Program-made: the position numbers and the translations under genes
Shown here: piece by piece, positions 11,137 to 27,144 of the stretch
How positions within the stretch are numbered: position 1 is the stretch's first letter
How the letters are laid out: each line of letters opens with the position of its first letter
From: a virus
IMG/VR virus record: IMGVR_UViG_3300043313_000471
Span: 1 to 42,320 of that record
DNA: 42,320 nt
Direction: 5' to 3' (one strand)
Notes under the pieces: generated by a model
Databases searched by the model: none
What the model was told of the DNA's origin: nothing
Seen by the model: only the letters and a program-made list of their open reading frames with translations

Positions 11137-13368
11137 ATGACCGACGACGAAGACAGGTATGTCACAATCTCGGTGACGAAGAAAAAGCCGGACAAGCCCG
11201 GCAAGCCAGACAAGCCGCCGATCGAGCCGCCGGAGGAAATCATCGAGCCACCGCCGGTCGCCGCCACCGGCTGGTCGCGGGTTCCGCTCGGTCCCGGCGG
11301 GTTCATTTCCGGCGTCGAGATCCATCCCTCCGGCACCATGATCTGCCGGATGGATACCTCTGGCGGCTATCGCTGGGACGCCGAGGCCGGTCGCTGGGTC
11401 ATGATGGTGACGACCGACAGCATGCCGGCCGATGTCACCACCCCCGGCTACGGCACCAACTGCGGCGCCTACGCCATTGCGATCGCGCCCAGCGACGGCA
11501 ACCGCGTCTACATGGCCTGGCAGCATCTGACGCAGTACCTGGTGATGCGCAGCGATGACGGCGGGGTGACGTTCCAGCACACCGGCTACGTTGCGGGCTC
11601 GGACTACGACTGGGACGGCAACGGGCCGAGCCGCGCCGCCAACAAACGCATGGCGGTCGATCCCAACGACGCCGACCTGGTCATCCTCGGCACCAACAGT
11701 GGCGTCAAGTGCTCCAGGGACGGCGGCGCGACGTGGACGACCCTCGACCTGCCTGCCTCTCCCAAGCCAGCGCAGGGCTATCTGGTCGCCATCGATCCCC
11801 TCGGCATCATGTACGTCATGGTATCCGGGATCGGGGTCTATCTCTCCGCTAACGCCGGCGACAGCTGGCAGCTGGCGGCGCCTGATGGTCCACTATCGGC
11901 GCAGCAGATGATCGTCACCCGCAACGGCCGGGTGATGTCGGTGATCGACTACAGCTACGCCAACGAGCTCTACGCGCCGGTCAGCATCCTCGATGAGGGG
12001 ATATGGCTCACGGTGCAGCCGGACGCGGTGCCGCATGCCATTCTTGGCGGCATTGCGGTCGACCCCGACGACGACAACCACATCGTAGTGGTCGACAACG
12101 AGGGCAACGTCTCATCCTCGTTCGATGGTGGCGTGACGTGGAGCGGCTTTGCCGGACACCACTACAGCTGCCCCGAAATACCCTGGCTCGACACGCTGTA
12201 CGGCGACTGGGCCGGCGAATGGGGGATGTACGGCTCGGGTTTGATGTTCGATCCGGGTGCTGCCAACAAGCTCTACATGGGTTTCGGGCTCGGCATTGCC
12301 TACGGCTACCCGTCGCCGGCCGCCAAGATGGAATGGCGCGACACCTCGCTGGGCCTAGAGCAGCTCTGCGCCAAGCGGCTGATCAAGCCTGCGGGTAACC
12401 CCAACGTGATCCTGGCGGTGATGGACCAGGGCGTGTTCACTTGCGACGGCATCAACTACCCGCAAACAAAAGGCATCATGCCGGAATTCGCCGCGGCCTG
12501 GGACTGCGACTGGTGTCCGGATGATCCGCAGACCGTGGTCGCGCTGATCAACCAGGCTCACGGCGGCCGGCCGGACCAGAGCGGCGTGAGCCGGGACGGC
12601 GGCCAGACGTGGGCCATGTTCAACAACTGGGACTTCAATGGCGGCGTGACCCGCAGCGGCGGCATGATCGCCTGTGGCACCGATCCGGATAACTTCATCA
12701 TCGTGATGGCCGACAACGGCCAGCAGAACGGGCTCTACTACACCAGGGACGCCGGCAACAGCTGGTCGTTGTGCGAGTTCAGCAACATCCCAGGGATCCC
12801 GCCATCGGGCGACACCGGCTGGGTGCAGAATTACTATTACAACCGCCACACCATTTGCGGCGACCGGGTGCTCGACGGCACCTTCTATGGACGGAACAAC
12901 AACGTCGGATATGTCCGCAGCACCGACTTCGGCGAGACCTGGGAGCTGATGCACGCGCTGGCCGGCGGCGTCCATGCCAATGCGCGGCTGGTGTCGGTGC
13001 CAGGTCATGCCGGGCATCTGCTCTATGCCAGCGGATCCAGCGGGCACACCAACTTCGGCGGGGCGATGAAGCGCTCGACCGATGGCGGCGCGACCTGGAC
13101 CGACACCAACACCGGCGAGGTGCTGTGCATGGGGTTTGGCAAGGGCGCCACGGACTATCCTTCAATCTATATCGTCGGATGGGTTGACAACGTGTACGGC
13201 ATCTATCGCTCCGACGACGAGTTGGCGACGTGGCAAAAGATCGGTGACTACCCGATGGGATGTTTCGACACGCCGGCCGACATCTGCGGCGACCTCGACG
13301 TTTACGGGCACTGCTATGTGTCGTCGCTGGCCAGCGGCATCTTCAAATACATGGGAGAAACGCGATGA
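11137..13368 (+). CDS. Asp-box (BNR) beta-propeller tail spike, glycosidase-like
   Basis: A 743-aa protein. After a short Lys/Pro-rich linker (residues about 13-40) it has at least eight Asp-box motifs of the S-x-D-x-G-x-T-W type: SDDGGVTF, SRDGGATW, SANAGDSW, SFDGGVTW, SRDGGQTW, TRDAGNSW, STDFGETW, STDGGATW. Asp boxes sit on the outer hairpins of sialidase-type and xyloglucanase (GH74)-type propellers. The spacing over the whole length fits a double seven-bladed GH74-like protein, which would make this a sugar-degrading or sugar-binding spike against capsule or exopolysaccharide. Catalytic residues cannot be named with confidence. It follows the adaptor gene by 9 bases. Confidence 0.75.
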   Translation: MTDDEDRYVTISVTKKKPDKPGKPDKPPIEPPEEIIEPPPVAATGWSRVPLGPGGFISGVEIHPSGTMICRMDTSGGYRWDAEAGRWVMMVTTDSMPADVTTPGYGTNCGAYAIAIAPSDGNRVYMAWQHLTQYLVMRSDDGGVTFQHTGYVAGSDYDWDGNGPSRAANKRMAVDPNDADLVILGTNSGVKCSRDGGATWTTLDLPASPKPAQGYLVAIDPLGIMYVMVSGIGVYLSANAGDSWQLAAPDGPLSAQQMIVTRNGRVMSVIDYSYANELYAPVSILDEGIWLTVQPDAVPHAILGGIAVDPDDDNHIVVVDNEGNVSSSFDGGVTWSGFAGHHYSCPEIPWLDTLYGDWAGEWGMYGSGLMFDPGAANKLYMGFGLGIAYGYPSPAAKMEWRDTSLGLEQLCAKRLIKPAGNPNVILAVMDQGVFTCDGINYPQTKGIMPEFAAAWDCDWCPDDPQTVVALINQAHGGRPDQSGVSRDGGQTWAMFNNWDFNGGVTRSGGMIACGTDPDNFIIVMADNGQQNGLYYTRDAGNSWSLCEFSNIPGIPPSGDTGWVQNYYYNRHTICGDRVLDGTFYGRNNNVGYVRSTDFGETWELMHALAGGVHANARLVSVPGHAGHLLYASGSSGHTNFGGAMKRSTDGGATWTDTNTGEVLCMGFGKGATDYPSIYIVGWVDNVYGIYRSDDELATWQKIGDYPMGCFDTPADICGDLDVYGHCYVSSLASGIFKYMGETR

Positions 13369-14841: not shown

Positions 14842-16605
14842 TCAGGCGGCCCACCGTCCCAGCGACACCACGTTATTTTCGCTGCCGCGATAACGTTGCA
14901 CTTGACGTGACAGGTTTGCCGTTATCGCTGCAGACCGATCTTCGCTAACCCCTTCATTTGCAAAGATTTCTTCGGTTGATCGGGTTTGTGGGAATAGCTT
15001 CACCCCCATGATGGCTGACAATCTGCCATAGGCGTCGACCACATAAGGCTGTCGGTAGCCGGTCGGCTGCACGACGATGCTGTCCATGATGTTTCGGAAG
15101 GCGATCGCGACGTCTGGATCAATGGTGTCCGTGCTCAACTTGGCGTGCAGTTCCTCGATGGTTTCGCGGTAGCGGTCAATGGCGGCCGGGTGTAGGTCGA
15201 TCACGTTGCCCATATTGGTGCTCTGCAACAGGCGCAGCCGTTCCACCAGGCCCACCCGTTCGGCTTCCTTGGCTTCCATCGATGCCACCAGTTCCTTGAC
15301 CGGGGTATCGCTGTCGGCGATCGCGTCCACCAGCCGGCTGATCTGGACGGTCAACTTGTTTACCTTCTTCTCGACTTCGGTGCGCTCGGCGTTGTCTTTG
15401 GTTGCCTGGGCGGCATATTCCGCATGGTAGGCTCGCATGGCCTCGGCGTGCCGCTTTGGGTCGACCAGGTGCTTGCGGAAATTATCGACCACCAGTTTCT
15501 TCAGTAGGTCGATGTCGTAAAGTTTGCCATGCTGGCAGGTGGACTTCACCTTCGCCGCTGCACAGGCAACGAACTGCTTGCCTCGCGAAGTGCTGGCGAA
15601 GATCATGTGACCGTGACATTGGCCGCAACGAAGCAAACCAGAGAGAAGATGGTTGCTGCGCCGAACCACGCGGCGTGTCCCACTCCCTCTGCCGGTGCCG
15701 GTGCCTGATCGCTTGAGAGACCGACTCTCGCGGACTGCCTGGGCGGCATCCCACAAATCCTGATCGATGATCCGCAAGTGCGGGACGGCTTTAACGACGT
15801 GATCCTGCTCGGGGTTAAGCCGGGCTATGACACCGTTGTCGTCCAGTTTCCGGACGTTGTGGTGCCGGTTATAAACCAGCTCGCCTACATAGAGGCGGTT
15901 ACCCAATAGTCCCGACTTGCCACCACCACCCATGAACGATTGATGGCTCCAAACCGCCTCACCGCTCGGCGAGACAATGCCGTCACGGGTCAGGCCAACC
16001 GCAATAGCGCGCGGCGAAACGCCATTGGCGTATTCGGTAAAAATGCGCCGGACGATGGTGGCGTGTTCGGTGTAGATCTCGCGCTCACCCGGCTTGCCGG
16101 GGATGTCGCGGTAGCCATAGCTGACCGCGCCCATGACATGGCCATCGTTAACCCGGCCCAAATGATGGCGCCTGATTTTGTCGCCAAGGTCCTTGAGAAA
16201 CATCGCACCGACCATGCCGCGGATGCCGACATGCATGTCGGTGGCGGTGCCCTCGTTGACGGCGCGCAGTTCAACCTCGAAAAATTTGAGCCTGTGGAAG
16301 ATGGCTGGAAGATCGACGGGGCTGCGGGATAAGCGATCAAGGCTTTCAACGAGCAAGACATCGATCTTCTTCGTCTGGACCAACTCCATCAACCGAGCCA
16401 AGCCAGGCCGGTCGAACTGTGTCGCGCCGGTTCTTGCCTTGTCGAAACACTCATATGCGATGTTGATGCCCTCGCGCTTTGCGTAGGTTTTGCAAAGCGA
16501 AAACTGATCGTCAATCGATCGGTCGTTTTGTTTTTCGTCGGAGAAGCGGGCGTAAAGGGCTGCGGTTTTTTGATTGTGCTTCGGGCTTGCCATGGTCTCT
16601 CGCAT
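14842..16605 (-). CDS. int: Large serine integrase
   Basis: A 587-aa site-specific recombinase of the large serine family. The N-terminal resolvase domain (about 14-160) has the catalytic serine at S22 in YARFS, then SIDDQ and LDRLSR (89-94). A recombinase domain follows (about 165-300), a zinc ribbon with C327, C330, C348 and C357, and a coiled-coil-rich segment (about 375-450). It should integrate and, with a directionality factor not identified here, excise the prophage. An in-frame ATG at 16593 is an equally good start. It is the last gene of the leftward early operon. No att site can be assigned from this sequence alone. Confidence 0.93.
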   Translation of the reverse strand: MRETMASPKHNQKTAALYARFSDEKQNDRSIDDQFSLCKTYAKREGINIAYECFDKARTGATQFDRPGLARLMELVQTKKIDVLLVESLDRLSRSPVDLPAIFHRLKFFEVELRAVNEGTATDMHVGIRGMVGAMFLKDLGDKIRRHHLGRVNDGHVMGAVSYGYRDIPGKPGEREIYTEHATIVRRIFTEYANGVSPRAIAVGLTRDGIVSPSGEAVWSHQSFMGGGGKSGLLGNRLYVGELVYNRHHNVRKLDDNGVIARLNPEQDHVVKAVPHLRIIDQDLWDAAQAVRESRSLKRSGTGTGRGSGTRRVVRRSNHLLSGLLRCGQCHGHMIFASTSRGKQFVACAAAKVKSTCQHGKLYDIDLLKKLVVDNFRKHLVDPKRHAEAMRAYHAEYAAQATKDNAERTEVEKKVNKLTVQISRLVDAIADSDTPVKELVASMEAKEAERVGLVERLRLLQSTNMGNVIDLHPAAIDRYRETIEELHAKLSTDTIDPDVAIAFRNIMDSIVVQPTGYRQPYVVDAYGRLSAIMGVKLFPQTRSTEEIFANEGVSEDRSAAITANLSRQVQRYRGSENNVVSLGRWAA

Positions 16606-21269: not shown

Positions 21270-21383
21270 TTAGCGGGCCGGCTTGCGGCTGGACTTCTTG
21301 GTCGCGGTCTTCTTGGCAGCAGCGGCGGTCTTCTTGCCGCCCTTGCGCGTTGTCTTCTTGGCGGGCTTTCCGGCCTTCATCAT
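21270..21383 (-). CDS. Histone H1-like Lys/Ala-rich peptide
   Basis: A 37-aa peptide, very rich in Lys, Ala and Thr, with repeated AKKTA/TKK units (GGKKTAAAAKKTATKKSSRK). GGGAG lies a suitable distance before the tandem ATG codons. Such tails are typical of DNA-compacting H1-like or 'KAT' proteins of alphaproteobacteria, so it may coat DNA or recruit the recombination proteins. It is the first gene of the leftward operon; a hairpin (CCGACGG-7-CCGTCGG, 21214-21234) separates it from the exonuclease gene. Confidence 0.6.
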   Translation of the reverse strand: MMKAGKPAKKTTRKGGKKTAAAAKKTATKKSSRKPAR

Positions 21384-21786
21384 CACGCAACTCCCCGTTG
21401 TCGGATATTTTCTAGCGCGGCGAAAATTCCAGTCTCATCATTTGGGGTACGTCAATTTGCATTCGTCAATAGCGCCACGCATTGCAGGTGTAAGCGGAAA
21501 CGCTGTGAAAAAAGACATTCCCGCGCACCTCGGTCGCGGCAATTTCGCGGGCCTATCTACACCTGCCGACTGGGGATAAGTGCGTTGCACCTATTTACTT
21601 TTCCCGAACGGTCATGTTTCGACCTACACCTGGTTGCATGTCGGGAACCGAACATAGATCAGGGTTTAATGCCCTGACGACGGGCAAAAAATATTTTTTG
21701 CAGCGTTGACGATTTCGTTTTGATGCAGCCCTTTGGTGTCCGCGGCCTCGAAGGCAGGGACGTTTAGTCCAACGGGGTCACTGCTA
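21384..21786. promoter_or_regulatory. Central divergent control region
   Basis: A 403-bp stretch without a convincing gene, between the leftward and rightward early operons. It holds AGGTGTA at 21486-21492, TACACCT at 21558-21564 and 21625-21631, and TGCACCT at 21586-21592, matching motifs upstream of the XRE gene. CGTCAAT repeats at 21450 and 21464 read as TTGACG on the minus strand (candidate leftward -35 elements); TTGACG at 21706 may serve the rightward side. A hairpin TCAGGG/CCCTGA (21659-21677) and an AT-rich palindrome lie just before it. No -10 can be assigned with confidence. Confidence 0.55.
21684..21701. repeat. Perfect 18-bp AT-rich palindrome
   Basis: GCAAAAAATATTTTTTGC reads the same on both strands. 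It lies five bases before a TTGACG element and about 86 bases before the Cro-like gene. Possible roles are operator, UP-element-like promoter part, or an easily melted replication start. Too AT-rich and symmetrical to be expected by chance in this GC-rich genome. Confidence 0.6.
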
Positions 21787-22038
21787 ATGTCCACCAATGT
21801 TGATCGTGCGCTTGCGCGGGCTATTCAGCTTGCCGGCGGACAAAGTGCGCTGGCGCGAGCCGTCGGCTATACCCAGAATGCGATCTGGAAGGCGAAGACC
21901 TGTGGCCGGGTCACGGCCGAGCTCGCCGTCAAGATCGAGAAAGCCACCAACGGCAAAGTGCGGCGCGAACAGCTGGCGCCGAAGATATTCGATCCAAAGA
22001 CCGTCACGCCGATCACCGATGACGAAGCGGTGGCGTGA
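21787..22038 (+). CDS. Cro/YdaS-like helix-turn-helix regulator
   Basis: An 83-aa DNA-binding protein, first gene of the rightward early operon. The HTH is ALARAIQLAGGQSALARAVG followed by YTQNAIWKAKTCGRVTAELA, where the 'gGqsaLArAvGvtqnavwkw' pattern is that of YdaS/Cro-type proteins. The frame extends upstream to 21733, but the ATG at 21787 fits the start of the HTH family. The natural role is Cro-like: turning down the repressor or early promoters through the motifs just upstream. Stop overlaps the next start (TGATG). Confidence 0.75.
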   Translation: MSTNVDRALARAIQLAGGQSALARAVGYTQNAIWKAKTCGRVTAELAVKIEKATNGKVRREQLAPKIFDPKTVTPITDDEAVA

Positions 22039-22454
22039 TGCCGGGGCAGCTTCATCTTTTCCGCGGAAAAAAGCAGCGTGGCACGCGTGCACCGCGTGCG
22101 ACGGAATTTGCGCTGCATGTTGCGATTGCCGACGTCATCCGGCGGTGGATCGAACCTGGCTGGCGTTTCACGCATCTTCCCCTCGGAGAGCTGCGCGACA
22201 AGATCACCGCTGCGCGGCTGAAAAGAATGGGCACCACGCCGGGCTGGCCGGATCTGATGTTTTTCCGTGACGACGGCCGCGTCTGCTTCCTCGAATTGAA
22301 AAGGAAGGGCGGTGCGCTGAGCGAAGCGCAGGCCGAGCTCGCCACGTTCCTGCACGCGGCCGGCCATGGCTTTGAGATCACCGACGACTTCAAAAAGGCG
22401 ATCGAGATCCTCAAGGGCTGGGGCGTCGTGCGCGCCGGGGTGGCTGTGCAGTGA
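22038..22454 (+). CDS. VRR-NUC domain nuclease
   Basis: A 138-aa protein consisting of one virus-type replication-repair nuclease domain. The core GTTPGWPDLMFFRDDGRVCF then LELKRKGGALSEAQ has the PD...ExK metal-binding arrangement (D in PDL, E-x-K in LELK), about residues 72-102. ATEFALHVAIADVIRR is the leading helix. Such enzymes cut branched or flapped DNA, so it belongs to replication and recombination. ATG overlaps the regulator stop. A 9-bp hairpin follows the gene. Confidence 0.85.
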   Translation: MPGQLHLFRGKKQRGTRAPRATEFALHVAIADVIRRWIEPGWRFTHLPLGELRDKITAARLKRMGTTPGWPDLMFFRDDGRVCFLELKRKGGALSEAQAELATFLHAAGHGFEITDDFKKAIEILKGWGVVRAGVAVQ

Positions 22455-22461
22455 AATGACC

Positions 22462-22498
22462 CACCGCAAAACGCAGCCAGCAACTGCCCTTTGCGGTG
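22462..22498 (+). promoter_or_regulatory. Hairpin between VRR-NUC and PEP-CTERM genes
   Basis: CACCGCAAA (22462-22470) and TTTGCGGTG (22490-22498) form a perfect 9-bp stem with a 19-base loop. There is no T-run after it, so it is not a standard terminator. It lies 35 bases before the PEP-CTERM start and could mark the left boundary or an operator of that gene. Confidence 0.45.
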
Positions 22499-22532
22499 CG
22501 CCATAGCACCGTTTGCAAACAGGAGACCTACT

Positions 22533-23099
22533 ATGTTGAAGCAATTGCTTTTAACCACCGCCACCGTGCTGGCGCTGTCGGCGCCGGCCGGCGCGGCCTT
22601 TGTCGCACCGCTCGGAAATAACCCGAACTCCTCGACCGGCCATTTTTCCAACTCCGTGCTCGGAACGACGTTCATTGACGACTACACGTTCACCTTGAGT
22701 GGGTCACCGCAGTTTGTTGCGTTTGCGTCAGCGACCAACTCCTACGCCGGGCCGGGCGACTTCATCAGCAACTTTACCGGGCAGCTGTTCTCGTTCGGTG
22801 CCGACCTTGCCTACAACACGGTCGACGACTTCGCAGTCAACCCGCCCGCGGTCGCACATCCCTGCACCGACAATCCGACCGCGTGCCAGGAGCTCTCGGG
22901 CAGCGCGATCCTCGCCGCTGGCGGTTACTACCTGCAGTTCCAGGGCACGGGCGGCGGCACCGCTGGCTATGGTGGCGATCTCACCACAGCACCGATCGCT
23001 GCAATCCCGGAGCCGTCGACCTGGGCGATGATGATCCTGGGCTTTGCCGGCATCGGCTTCATGGCATATCGCCGCGGTGCCCAGTTCCGCTTTGCTTGA
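22533..23099 (+). CDS. PEP-CTERM (PEPxxWA) exported protein, FxDxF-like
   Basis: A 188-aa secreted protein. The signal peptide is [20 protein letters not shown] with AA just after it (about residues 1-22). The body has [13 protein letters not shown] (about 45-57), close to the FxDxF family of PEP-CTERM proteins, and is rich in Asn, Ser and Gly. The C-terminus has [20 protein letters not shown] then AYRR: a PEP motif, a membrane helix and a basic tail. In hosts with exosortase this signal is cut and the protein leaves the membrane, often into exopolysaccharide. AGGAG precedes the ATG. A terminator follows directly. Very unusual cargo for a phage. Confidence 0.85.
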
Positions 23100-23109
23100 A
23101 CGTAACTCG

Positions 23110-23142
23110 GGCGGCGGTGCTTTGTGCCGCTGCCTGTTTTTT
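23110..23142 (+). terminator. Rho-independent terminator after the PEP-CTERM gene
   Basis: An 11-bp stem (GGCGGCGGTGC with GTGCCGCTGCC, three G-T pairs), a TTT loop, then TG and six T bases, starting 10 bases after the stop codon. It would end transcripts of the PEP-CTERM gene, which suggests that this gene is an independent unit inside the early operon, or that reading further needs antitermination. Confidence 0.7.
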
Positions 23143-23166: not shown

Positions 23167-23508
23167 ATGAAACAATGGGAGCAACGAATTCTGATGCAGA
23201 TCCAGATGCCGGGGGAAACGGGTTGGTCGACAGAACAGGTATTCACCGGCGAGCGGCTGTATTGCTATCTGCAGGCCGAGGTCACCGAGGCGATCGATCT
23301 TGCGGTCGGCCAGGTCGCCGAGCTGCAGCAACTAACGCTGCATGAGGTCGCCGGCATCATCGCGCATGGCCTGATGGAAACCGCGATGCGCCAGATCATG
23401 GCCGCAAAAATGCCGTGCTCGCTGGCCGAATTCGAGGCTGCAGCCAGGCAGGTTTATCAAAGCTGCCACGGCCTCAACGATCATGGAGACGCCCACCCCA
23501 AGCAATAA
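23167..23508 (+). CDS. Early protein, unknown function
   Basis: A 113-aa protein read from ATG 23167. It is mostly helical (ERLYCYLQAEVTEAIDLAVG, then LHEVAGIIAHGLMETAMRQI) with no motif I recognise. It lies 12 bases before the TTG start of the helicase and so is probably translated with it. It might be a replication accessory protein; that is only position. Confidence 0.55.
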   Translation: MKQWEQRILMQIQMPGETGWSTEQVFTGERLYCYLQAEVTEAIDLAVGQVAELQQLTLHEVAGIIAHGLMETAMRQIMAAKMPCSLAEFEAAARQVYQSCHGLNDHGDAHPKQ

Positions 23509-23520
23509 GAGGCCGAAAAA

Positions 23521-25041
23521 TTGCCCGTTGAATTCGCCCAACGACAGGATGATCTCGGCCCGTTCGCCGAAGGCGTTGCGCTGTGGTCTCGGATGATCGC
23601 AACGTCGCCGGACAAGCGGCCGGCGGTGTTCCGCAATTGCATCGCGGAGGGTGCGACGTTCGTGGCCAAGGGCGCACCGCTCGGGCTGATCACGGAGGCG
23701 CTGATCGAGCGCGCCGAGCGGCACCATCTGGTTGACGAGCTCGGCGGTCACGAGGCAGTGGAATCGCTGGTGGCACACGGGCTGAACGGGGAAGCGGAGT
23801 CGTTTGAACCATTCACCCTGGACGAAGAACGGCTGAACTGGGAACCGCAACCGGAAATTACATACGCGCCAGCCAGACCTATCATCGCCGCACCCTATGT
23901 CTGGATTGATCCCGAGAACATCCCGCTGCGTGACTGGCTCTACGGAAGGCTGCTGGTGCGGCGATTTCTCACCGTGACCATTGCGCCAGGCGGCGTCGGA
24001 AAGTCATCCCTGATCGCCTGCGAGGCGCTGGCGATGGCTTCAGGGCGCAATCTCCTCGGTGTGCTGCCGACGCGCCGGCTGAAGGTCTGGCTCTGGAATC
24101 TCGAGGATCCGCAGGAGGAGACCGCGCGCAAGATACAGGCGGCGGCGAAGCACTACGGCCTGACCGCGAGCGACATCACCAGCTGGCTGTTCGTCAATTC
24201 GGGGCGCGATCATGCGCTGGTGATCGCCAAGGAAGTGCGCGGCGGCACCATCATCCTGCGGCCAGTGATTGACAACATCGTGCAGCAGCTCCGAGAGCAT
24301 GGCATCGATGTGCTGGAGGTCGATCCCTTCGTCTCCTGCCATGAGGTTTCCGAGAATGACAATTCCGCCATCGATATGATCGCGAAGGAATGGAGCCGCG
24401 TGGCCGAGCTGGCCGATTGCGCGATCCATCTCGTGCATCATACCCGCAAAGCGCCAGCTGGCACCGAGGTCACGACCGACTCAAGCCGAGGCGCGAAGGC
24501 GCTCACCGATGCGGCGCGGGTAGCGCGGGCGCTCAATCAGATGAGCGAGGAGGATGGCGCGAAAGCTGGCGTCGATAACCACCGGCTGTTCTTCCGCGGC
24601 TTCAACGACAAGGCTAATCTCGCGCCGCCTGTCACCGAATCGAACTGGTTCAAGCTGGCCAGCGTCTGGCTCGACAATGCGCCCGGCGGCGGCGACAGCG
24701 TCGGCGTCGTGACGCATTGGGACTGGCCGGACCCGCTCGCTGGCGTTACCGCCCATGACTTCGATAAGGTTGCCGAGGTGGTCAACAGCCAAGACTGGCG
24801 CTTGGATGTGCGATCGACTGACTGGGTCGGCAAGGCAGTGGCGGAGGCGATGGGGCTGGATGAGGAGGATGATAGAGATAAGGCCAAGATCAGCAGCCTG
24901 CTCAAACTGTGGATTTCGGCGCGCAGTTTGGAGGTTGTGAAGGGCTACGACCAGCAGCGGCGGGAGCGAAAATTTGTACAGGTGTGCAGTGCAAGAAATA
25001 CCCTGCTCCAGTCAGCAAAAGTCTCACTGGAGCAGACTTGA
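23521..25041 (+). CDS. RepA-like replicative helicase (AAA ATPase)
   Basis: A 506-aa protein with an N-terminal helical region like the part of DnaB-type or primase-helicase proteins (about 1-90) and a RecA-like ATPase domain (about 120-370). Walker A is APGGVGKSS (155-163) and Walker B VLEVD (264-268); IHLVHHTRK and SSRGAKALTDAARVARAL fit the later motifs of RepA-type helicases. It should unwind DNA at the phage origin. The start is a TTG with AAGAGG upstream; downstream starts would cut the conserved N-terminus. Its last codons run into a repeat/hairpin array. Confidence 0.8.
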   Translation: MPVEFAQRQDDLGPFAEGVALWSRMIATSPDKRPAVFRNCIAEGATFVAKGAPLGLITEALIERAERHHLVDELGGHEAVESLVAHGLNGEAESFEPFTLDEERLNWEPQPEITYAPARPIIAAPYVWIDPENIPLRDWLYGRLLVRRFLTVTIAPGGVGKSSLIACEALAMASGRNLLGVLPTRRLKVWLWNLEDPQEETARKIQAAAKHYGLTASDITSWLFVNSGRDHALVIAKEVRGGTIILRPVIDNIVQQLREHGIDVLEVDPFVSCHEVSENDNSAIDMIAKEWSRVAELADCAIHLVHHTRKAPAGTEVTTDSSRGAKALTDAARVARALNQMSEEDGAKAGVDNHRLFFRGFNDKANLAPPVTESNWFKLASVWLDNAPGGGDSVGVVTHWDWPDPLAGVTAHDFDKVAEVVNSQDWRLDVRSTDWVGKAVAEAMGLDEEDDRDKAKISSLLKLWISARSLEVVKGYDQQRRERKFVQVCSARNTLLQSAKVSLEQT

Positions 25042-25142
25042 GCACACCGGAACATCTCCAGACCCTGCTCCACTTCCACTTCCTTACAGGAAGAGGAAGT
25101 GGAGTGGAGCAGGTTCCACTGGAGATACCGGCACTGGAGCAG
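25003..25142. repeat. ACTGGAGCAG repeat and hairpin array
   Basis: Three exact copies of ACTGGAGCAG: inverted at 25003-25012, direct at 25026-25035 and 25133-25142. Near-copies are CTGCTCCAC (25065-25073, inverted) and GTGGAGCAG (25104-25112). The first two form a 10-bp hairpin with a 13-base loop; the middle two lie in a larger imperfect hairpin (CTGCTCCACT...AGTGGAGCAG) around TTACAGGAAG. The array spans the end of the helicase gene and the space before the NusG-like gene. It could be an origin with iterons, an antitermination (put/nut-like) RNA site, or both. Confidence 0.75.
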
Positions 25143-25151
25143 AGTGGAGAA

Positions 25152-25685
25152 ATGAAACCACCTTGGTACGTAGTCCTGATCGGCGCCCAGCAGGAACTGA
25201 CCACGGTGTGGCGGCTGCATGTGCTCGGGCTCGAGATGTTCACCCCGGTGCTGCGACGGCGGATCCCGACCGGCCGGGTTCACCGCGGCAAGCCGCTCAC
25301 CAGGCTGGTGGTGCGTCCGATGTTCCCGTCCTACGGCTTCGTCCGCGTTGGCGAGGCCCAGGACATCGATACGGTGCGGTCGGTGCGTGGGGTGCGGGAC
25401 TTCCTGCGAAACGAACGGGCGGGCTTTGTAACCATTCCTGATGTCGCTGTGGCGGCGATCTACAACAAGCAGCAGGAGGAGCTGATGGAGTTCATCGAGG
25501 CATCGCGCCGGCGCCGCCGGTTTGCATCGAAGCTGCATCTCGGCCAGCGGGTGCGGGTGGAGGATGGTGGGGTCTATTCCGGCCTCGTGGCGCCCGTGGA
25601 TCGCATTGACGCTTCCGGCAGGATCCAGGTGCTGTTCGGAATGATACGCCACTCGCTGCCGGCGGATATGGTGGTGACGACATGA
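25152..25685 (+). CDS. NusG/RfaH-like transcription antiterminator
   Basis: A 177-aa protein with the two domains of the NusG family. The N-terminal domain (about 1-100) has WYVVLIGAQQELTTVWRLHV, then EMFTPVLRRR and RPMFPSYGFVRV, the typical 'WYvv...E...L...g.e.y.P.....r.lFPgYvFv' pattern. The C-terminal KOW domain (about 125-177) has LGQRVRVEDGGVYSGLVAPV and GRIQVLFGMI. It would bind RNA polymerase and let it pass terminators, plausibly the ones at 23110 and 32043. It starts just after the repeat array, with GGAG before ATG at 25152. It overlaps the next gene by ATGA. Confidence 0.85.
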   Translation: MKPPWYVVLIGAQQELTTVWRLHVLGLEMFTPVLRRRIPTGRVHRGKPLTRLVVRPMFPSYGFVRVGEAQDIDTVRSVRGVRDFLRNERAGFVTIPDVAVAAIYNKQQEELMEFIEASRRRRRFASKLHLGQRVRVEDGGVYSGLVAPVDRIDASGRIQVLFGMIRHSLPADMVVTT

Positions 25686-26338: not shown

Positions 26339-27144
26339 ATGTCCTCGACCTCTTTTCCGGCATCGGCGGATTCAGCCTCGGGCTTGAACGAGCCGGAATG
26401 CGAACCGTCGCGTTCTGCGAGATCGAACCCTATGCCCGCAGTGTCCTCGCCAAGCACTGGCCTGATGTCCCCTGCTACGACGACGTGCGAGGTCTTACCG
26501 CTGAACGCCTCGCCGCAGATGGAATTGCTGCCGATGTCATCTGTGGGGGGTTCCCCTGCCAGGACATCAGCGTGGTCGGAAAAAATGGCGGGATCAATGC
26601 AGAACGCAGCGGTCTATGGTCAGAGTACGCCCGAATTGTTGGCGAGGTTCGACCCCGATTCATCATCGTGGAGAACGTCGCAGCACTCCTTGGAAGGGGG
26701 ATTGACCGAGTTCTCGGAGACTTGGCCGCGCTCGGGTATGACGCGGAGTGGCACTGCATACCAGCTAGCTACGTTGGCGCCGCTCACCGACGAGACAGAG
26801 TTTGGATTGTGGCGAACCCCGACTGTGGGGATGCTCAACGCGGATCGCGCGAAAGATCCCGACTATGGACGGAGAAAATTAGCGAAAGGGCAGACGATAA
26901 CCCTGGCCGACCAAGTAAGGGTTTGGCCGACGCCGACAGCATCGCGACGTTCGGGGCTGCAATCTCACGGCAAGAACGCAATTCTTGGGAACCTGAACCC
27001 GACGTGGGTCGAGTGGCTAATGGGGTTCCCTCTCGGGTGGACCGCCTTAAAGGATTGGGCAACGCCGTCGTCCCGCAAATCCCGGAAATCATCGGCAGGG
27101 CAATCATGAACAGTCTCACGCTGTCTTCGCAGGAGCGACCATAA
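26335..27144 (+). CDS. Cytosine-C5 DNA methyltransferase (Dcm-like)
   Basis: A 269-aa enzyme that would methylate cytosine in a short DNA target, probably protecting phage DNA. Conserved motifs appear in order: I, LDLFSGIGGFS (4-14); IV, GGFPCQDIS with the catalytic C74; VI, ENVAALL (112-118); VIII, RRDRVWIVA (151-159); X, GNAVVPQIPEIIG (241-253). The region between VIII and X, which normally holds the target recognition domain, is only about 80 aa, so the enzyme is short. No restriction enzyme is beside it. The start overlaps the previous stop (ATGA). A second frame covers nearly the whole gene. Confidence 0.88.
   Translation: MNVLDLFSGIGGFSLGLERAGMRTVAFCEIEPYARSVLAKHWPDVPCYDDVRGLTAERLAADGIAADVICGGFPCQDISVVGKNGGINAERSGLWSEYARIVGEVRPRFIIVENVAALLGRGIDRVLGDLAALGYDAEWHCIPASYVGAAHRRDRVWIVANPDCGDAQRGSRERSRLWTEKISERADDNPGRPSKGLADADSIATFGAAISRQERNSWEPEPDVGRVANGVPSRVDRLKGLGNAVVPQIPEIIGRAIMNSLTLSSQERP
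26339..27109 (+). CDS. Overlapping ORF within the methyltransferase gene
   Basis: A 256-aa open frame, +1 relative to the methyltransferase, starting four bases after it and ending 35 bases before it. Its C-terminal half has the shape of a protein I know from other phage methyltransferase loci: FDPDSSSWRTSQ, then FSETWPRSGMTRSGTAYQL, WPTPTA, and LNPTWVEWLMGFPLGWTAL. The Trp/Pro/Gly-rich motifs look selected, not random. It may be a real dual-coded protein. The alternative is a conserved shadow: parts such as VGGSPARTSA are simply the other frame of motif IV, GGFPCQDIS. Both starts would share one ribosome site. Confidence 0.45.
   Translation: MSSTSFPASADSASGLNEPECEPSRSARSNPMPAVSSPSTGLMSPATTTCEVLPLNASPQMELLPMSSVGGSPARTSAWSEKMAGSMQNAAVYGQSTPELLARFDPDSSSWRTSQHSLEGGLTEFSETWPRSGMTRSGTAYQLATLAPLTDETEFGLWRTPTVGMLNADRAKDPDYGRRKLAKGQTITLADQVRVWPTPTASRRSGLQSHGKNAILGNLNPTWVEWLMGFPLGWTALKDWATPSSRKSRKSSAGQS

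Follow-up and report, generated by a model that had tools for sequence, protein, structure and literature searches.

The locus and its features

The DNA analysed here, hereafter the window, is the entire IMG/VR virus record IMGVR_UViG_3300043313_000471, 42,320 bases in length. It encodes terminase, portal, and tape-measure-like genes, a head protein with protease similarity, and RecE/RecT-like and nuclease genes. A serine recombinase gene is located centrally in the record, the terminase, capsid, and tape-measure genes are at 28–40 kb, and long, mostly unassigned genes fill 1–13 kb. Because of this arrangement, the record is probably free or circular phage DNA and not an integrated copy with host flanks. 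The phage is presumably temperate and tailed. One of the long genes (11137–13368, plus strand) encodes a 743-residue protein with BNR/Asp-box and sortilin-like repeats, which might be a tail protein that binds a receptor or glycans. The features around the PEP-CTERM gene, together with the recombinase, are as follows.

14842–16605, minus strand: large serine recombinase, presumed phage integrase (Resolvase, Recombinase, and Zn-ribbon Pfam domains)
21733–22038, plus strand: Cro/YdaS-like DNA-binding regulator, likely start ATG 21787 (PF15943, 66.4 bits, cut-off 30; weaker P22_Cro match)
22035–22454, plus strand: VRR-type nuclease, Holliday-junction-resolvase-like, likely start ATG 22038 (phrog_824, phrog_93, phrog_5702; VRR_NUC slightly below the Pfam cut-off)
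22462–22498, plus strand: weak stem-loop in the gap separating the nuclease and PEP-CTERM genes
22521–22526, plus strand: ribosome binding site AGGAGA, seen in the sequence 6 nt 5' of the ATG
22533–23099, plus strand: phage-encoded FxDxF-family PEPxxWA-CTERM protein of 188 residues (curated NCBIfam and Pfam cut-offs exceeded; frame without internal stop)
22533–22598, plus strand: signal peptide, residues 1–22, with an A-x-A type cleavage region (read by eye in a segment of 23 protein letters)
22671–22691, plus strand: FxDxF motif region FIDDYTF, residues 47–53 (alignment with nine bacterial FxDxF proteins)
23004–23075, plus strand: PEPxxWA-CTERM sorting signal, composed of IPEPSTWA, a hydrophobic helix, and RR (NF035944 aligns here with E 8.7e-12)
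23108–23142, plus strand: predicted Rho-independent terminator directly 3' of the PEP-CTERM gene, with a 13-pair stem (23108–23136) followed by T6
23167–23508, plus strand: next phage gene, 113 residues, in-frame ATG 23167 (no Pfam family match)
23521–25041, plus strand: AAA helicase/primase-type replication protein (AAA_25, phrog_25693/906)
24909–25685, plus strand: NusG/RfaH-like antiterminator (phrog_6386, PF02357; RfaH model below its cut-off)

The protein combines an export signal with a sorting tail

The PEP-CTERM gene starts with ATG at 22533 and its stop codon ends at 23099. A first-pass annotation, made from the DNA letters, had described a signal peptide, an FxDxF-like body, and a full sorting tail, and profile searches bear this out. 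At the protein level, the C-terminal signal matches the PEPxxWA-CTERM model NF035944 with 38.6 bits, above its cut-off of 35. The FxDxF model NF038126 gives 74.2 bits against a cut-off of 50 (E 1.4e-20) and covers residues 7–181, corresponding to profile positions 3–165 of 165. TIGR02595 (21.0 bits, cut-off 16) and Pfam PEP-CTERM (29.2, cut-off 20.7) are likewise exceeded. When the record was searched in six frames, NF035944 scored 41.6 bits (E 8.7e-12), and the same search found no match among 14 control genomes.

Alignment of the window protein with nine bacterial FxDxF proteins shows 28–34% identity along the whole body. Ala22 and Phe47 are invariant in this alignment and Phe53 is nearly so. 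The N-terminal signal peptide, as read by eye, and the C-terminal tag are thus found in one protein, as is expected of an exosortase substrate. The window gene is almost certainly an intact, phage-carried substrate of the exosortase type. The structure model has a beta-rich body of low confidence (mean pLDDT 60) and a helix at residues 161–180. Fold-search matches in the PDB, some of them to pre-peptidase C-terminal-like domains, were weak and derived from this low-confidence model, and were set aside. Searching the PDB by sequence profile with the window protein returned nothing meaningful.

The gene closes a putative early transcript

The PEP-CTERM gene is the third in a row consisting of the Cro/YdaS-type regulator, the nuclease, and the PEP-CTERM gene itself. 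It is separated by 78 bp from the nuclease and by 67 bp from the next gene, all on the same strand. Host contamination or chimeric assembly, by which a bacterial gene would sit in a phage contig, is hardly credible here: IMG/VR records may carry host flanks, but the gene is enclosed by same-strand phage genes at these short distances, continuous replication genes stand behind it, and the same type of arrangement is found again in independent contigs.

The gene had initially been read as a self-contained, moron-like unit with a hairpin in front and a Rho-independent terminator directly behind. The terminator stands: its folding has a z of -3.9, none of 200 shuffles was equally stable, and no other terminator-like hairpin in scans of the window was longer or richer in GC. 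The stem-loop in front is present and lacks a T-run; the fold of 22440–22532 has a z of -1.8 with 7 of 200 shuffles equally stable, so that it is not convincingly beyond chance and was rejected as a terminator. No sigma-70-like promoter was found in 22400–22533, where scan matches did not exceed the chance level; alphaproteobacterial promoters may differ from the pattern used. Since the front hairpin is unremarkable and no promoter is seen, the gene looks like the last one of an immediate-early transcript and not a self-contained moron, the timing being taken from gene order. Its place behind the Cro/YdaS-type regulator and the nuclease, in the same orientation, suggests that it is switched on early after infection, not in the lysogen. 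Of the moron-like unit, what remains is the terminator of its own and the lack of the motif in 15 relatives, several of them incomplete (see below). Like phage morons, the window gene is accessory and followed by a terminator; unlike them, it has no promoter of its own that could be seen and sits in a Cro-type early transcript.

By analogy with lambda tR1, the terminator at 23108 could serve to attenuate early transcription. The NusG/RfaH-like antiterminator gene is located 3' of this strong terminator, and its product possibly lets transcription read through into the replication and late genes. Between the divergent early operons, a small Lys/Ala-rich ORF of 38 residues (21270–21386, minus strand) has a histone-H1-like composition; it may be due to chance.

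The gene order bears on whether the protein is lysogenic-conversion cargo, which would be made in lysogens, add to the matrix, and improve aggregation or biofilm formation with no direct effect on other phages. The presumed serine integrase is in line with this explanation, and PEP-CTERM proteins can mediate floc formation (PMC9850573). Nevertheless, a gene behind a Cro/YdaS-like gene with no promoter of its own in sight is probably silent in a lysogen, and we regard this explanation as unlikely.

The gene is accessory among relatives of the phage

In IMG/VR, relatives of the window's TerL reach up to 86% identity. The PEPxxWA motif was found in none of 15 related phage records, several of which are short fragments. 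Two relatives, L024 and L056, keep the nuclease (47% and 44% identity) with no PEP-CTERM gene behind it. Hence, the PEP-CTERM gene is accessory in this lineage. A decayed copy in close relatives would have spoken against the first-pass reading; none of the relatives has such a remnant. Neither the whole protein nor the generic tail had a match among cultured phages, and plasmids gave no match either; in both searches low-complexity filtering may hide tail-only matches. The phage proteins compared included no relative of the window body.

Exosortase and the likely host

The phage had been described as lacking an exosortase, and we found none in the window record. The same holds for 21 other PEP-CTERM-bearing virus records, for which an exosortase-bearing genome served as positive control. 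We then sampled 249 genomes from the family to which Bradyrhizobium sp. Gha belongs (Xanthobacteraceae in GTDB). An exosortase is present in six of them. Matches to the FxDxF model, mostly driven by the tail, occur in five; four of these five have an exosortase together with many PEP-CTERM genes. One of the four, G659, additionally contains a helicase remnant similar to the window's helicase/primase-type protein, relatives of which are found in 37 of the 249 genomes.

The 24-residue tail of the window protein was compared with host tails. It is identical to 31 Bradyrhizobium-family tails at a median of 19 positions (range 16–22), and to 26 Sphingomonadales tails at a median of 14 (range 10–16). 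Full FxDxF proteins above the cut-off were detected in 12 of 198 sampled Sphingomonadales genomes and in none of the 249 from the Bradyrhizobium family. As full FxDxF bodies are present only in the Sphingomonadales samples while the tail is nearer to the Bradyrhizobium family, the body origin and the tail do not indicate the same host. The window protein is like the FxDxF family (NF038126) of Sphingomonadales in matching it at full length, from the signal peptide through the FxDxF region and the body to the tail; it differs in being phage-encoded and in having a tail of the kind found in exosortase-bearing Bradyrhizobium-family genomes. Judged from the sequences, the tail comparison and the exosortase sampling favour exosortase-bearing members of the Bradyrhizobium family or near relatives as host, probably a soil-type alphaproteobacterium. 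Candidate hosts with an exosortase thus exist, and the enzyme is patchy in the likely family (6 of 249), so that the host question is narrowed.

In named genomes, relatives of TerL are distant prophages (41–55% identical), mainly in Hyphomicrobiales and Sphingomonadales, and host assignment through TerL was dropped on account of this distance. Among these genomes, one Bradyrhizobium genome searched had no motif and Sphingomonas echinoides had 27 matches. A BLAST search with the body only against 385 Alphaproteobacteria genomes, with a query that is weak for this family and no positive control, returned nothing.

PEP-CTERM genes recur in uncultured phage records

A protein search of IMG/VR gave 16 loci, whose likeness to the window protein is limited to the tail region. 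IMG/VR was also scanned with three DNA patterns, and matches were kept on the basis of reading frame, a signal-like N-terminus, a hydrophobic tail, and a basic end. Filtering left 58 distinct genes, one of them plainly false, giving 57 plausible PEP-CTERM genes; they lie on contigs that IMG/VR classes as viral, of which a sample was checked for hallmark genes and the rest may include host flanks. The checked contigs carry a gpA-type TerL (L005, L006, L009), a portal (L004, L005, L009, L012), a serine integrase with TerL (L003), RecT (L016), or a phage PolA (L007, L010, L014). PEP-CTERM genes hence recur in uncultured phage records. The L005 contig (IMGVR_UViG_2751185896_000001, 54935 bases), with portal and gpA-type terminase genes, contains five PEPxxWA-CTERM matches.

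The first-pass annotation knew of no described phage role for this family. The titles, abstract openings, and selected passages of the literature describe none, though an earlier description may exist.

Bodies are exchanged at one locus in a second lineage

A second phage lineage, whose members have PolA proteins 83–90% identical, carries its PEP-CTERM gene among PolA, PurZ-like, and helicase genes. Specifically, the gene is located between PolA and the PurZ-like gene in L014, L010, L185, and L007, and is lacking from the same locus in L187, L188, and L189, of which L188 is short. Three unrelated bodies occupy the locus: one in L014 and L010, one in L185, and one in L007. Only the signal and tail regions are alike between the types. 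The body common to L014 and L010 is 57–60% identical between them, and the L014 version has a counterpart of 53% identity in L012, whose contig encodes a P22-like portal. The PurZ-like gene belongs to the 2-aminoadenylosuccinate synthetase family (phrog_1211; L014, L007, L010, L185, L187, L189), and this lineage may have modified adenine in its DNA.

A constant address with a variable cargo suggests that phages use these genes and do not carry them accidentally, and it is the strongest argument to that effect. Its extension to the window phage, which belongs to a different lineage, would be by analogy. This pattern bears on a passenger origin, in which a host PEP-CTERM gene was recently captured with its terminator and has no selected role. 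The window tail is close to host tails, the gene is not found in related phages, and hosts with the system have many such genes, which makes chance capture easy. On the other hand, the frame is intact and preceded by a ribosome binding site, and without selection it is difficult to account for recurrence in many virus contigs together with one locus holding differing bodies. For the window's own gene, of which there is a single instance, a passenger origin is nevertheless conceivable, though we consider it rather unlikely.

Retention of tail and signal while bodies change, as seen in the phages compared, would also be expected if only the tag mattered. The phage protein would then act as a competitive substrate that occupies the host exosortase and blocks host PEP-CTERM export, thinning the matrix and easing release or spread. 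The bodies, however, are full-length and domain-like and have not been lost, and the occurrence of one body type at 53–60% identity across phages suggests that bodies matter; such competition is highly improbable.

Proposed role

The first-pass annotation offered two effects, alteration of the matrix of lysogens or blocked adsorption of other phages. Because the second lineage has its gene among replication genes, with no integrase noticed in the partial stretches inspected, a benefit to lysogens only is unlikely as a general explanation. The early position and the body exchange lead us to place exclusion of competing phages before slow matrix building, and we adopt exclusion as a tentative reading.

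We propose that the host PEP-CTERM/exosortase sorting system handles a substrate carried by the phage. A short immediate-early transcript would comprise the Cro/YdaS-like regulator, the nuclease, the PEP-CTERM gene, and the terminator. The signal peptide would direct export of the protein and the C-terminal helix would hold it in the inner membrane. In an exosortase host, cleavage at the PEP motif would hand the protein over to the outer surface or to the matrix of exopolysaccharide. This would alter the envelope of the freshly infected cell so that competing phages adsorb or inject less well, amounting to superinfection exclusion. Some phages exchange the ectodomain but retain the tag. Taken as a whole, an early exosortase-tagged envelope protein that excludes rivals is the best explanation we have, possible though short of probable. 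More doubtful is the generalization that phages of exosortase-bearing bacteria share an exchangeable cargo slot, in which an early secreted protein with constant signal and tag and a replaceable ectodomain would be delivered to the cell surface by the host exosortase, remodel the infected cell, and exclude rivals. If so, it would, as far as the present searches show, be the first case of a phage making use of the exosortase route.

Llp of phage T5 is an early superinfection-exclusion lipoprotein. The window protein, as proposed here, is comparable to Llp and to Ltp of phage TP-J34 in being a small, phage-encoded, exported protein displayed on the envelope, and Ltp lipoproteins are described as phage proteins put on the host surface to exclude rivals (PMC3952083). 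It differs from both in having no lipobox, no cysteine near the cleavage site, and a predicted exosortase tag, and homology is not expected. PEP-CTERM proteins have been proposed as exosortase substrates linked to exopolysaccharide (PMC1569441). In Aquincola, overexpression of the PEP-CTERM protein PepA increased bound and decreased soluble exopolysaccharide (PMC9850573). The window protein shares the sorting logic of PepA-type matrix proteins and possibly a matrix role; PepA, in contrast, is bacterial and RpoN-regulated, and its model NF033554 is not among the families matched by the window protein.

In environmental bacteria, many proteins whose function is mostly unknown are exported through exosortase systems. 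Should phages carry such genes under selection and exchange the outer domains at a fixed place, PEP-CTERM proteins would become candidates in the surface conflict between phage and bacterium, and their function would become testable by simple infection assays. The proposed role, if true, would also give phages a further way of placing proteins on the surface of Gram-negative hosts, one that needs no lipoprotein.

Elsewhere in the window, a 118-bp segment inside a DNA methyltransferase gene (26924–27041, plus strand) is 85.6% identical to two Synechococcus phages.
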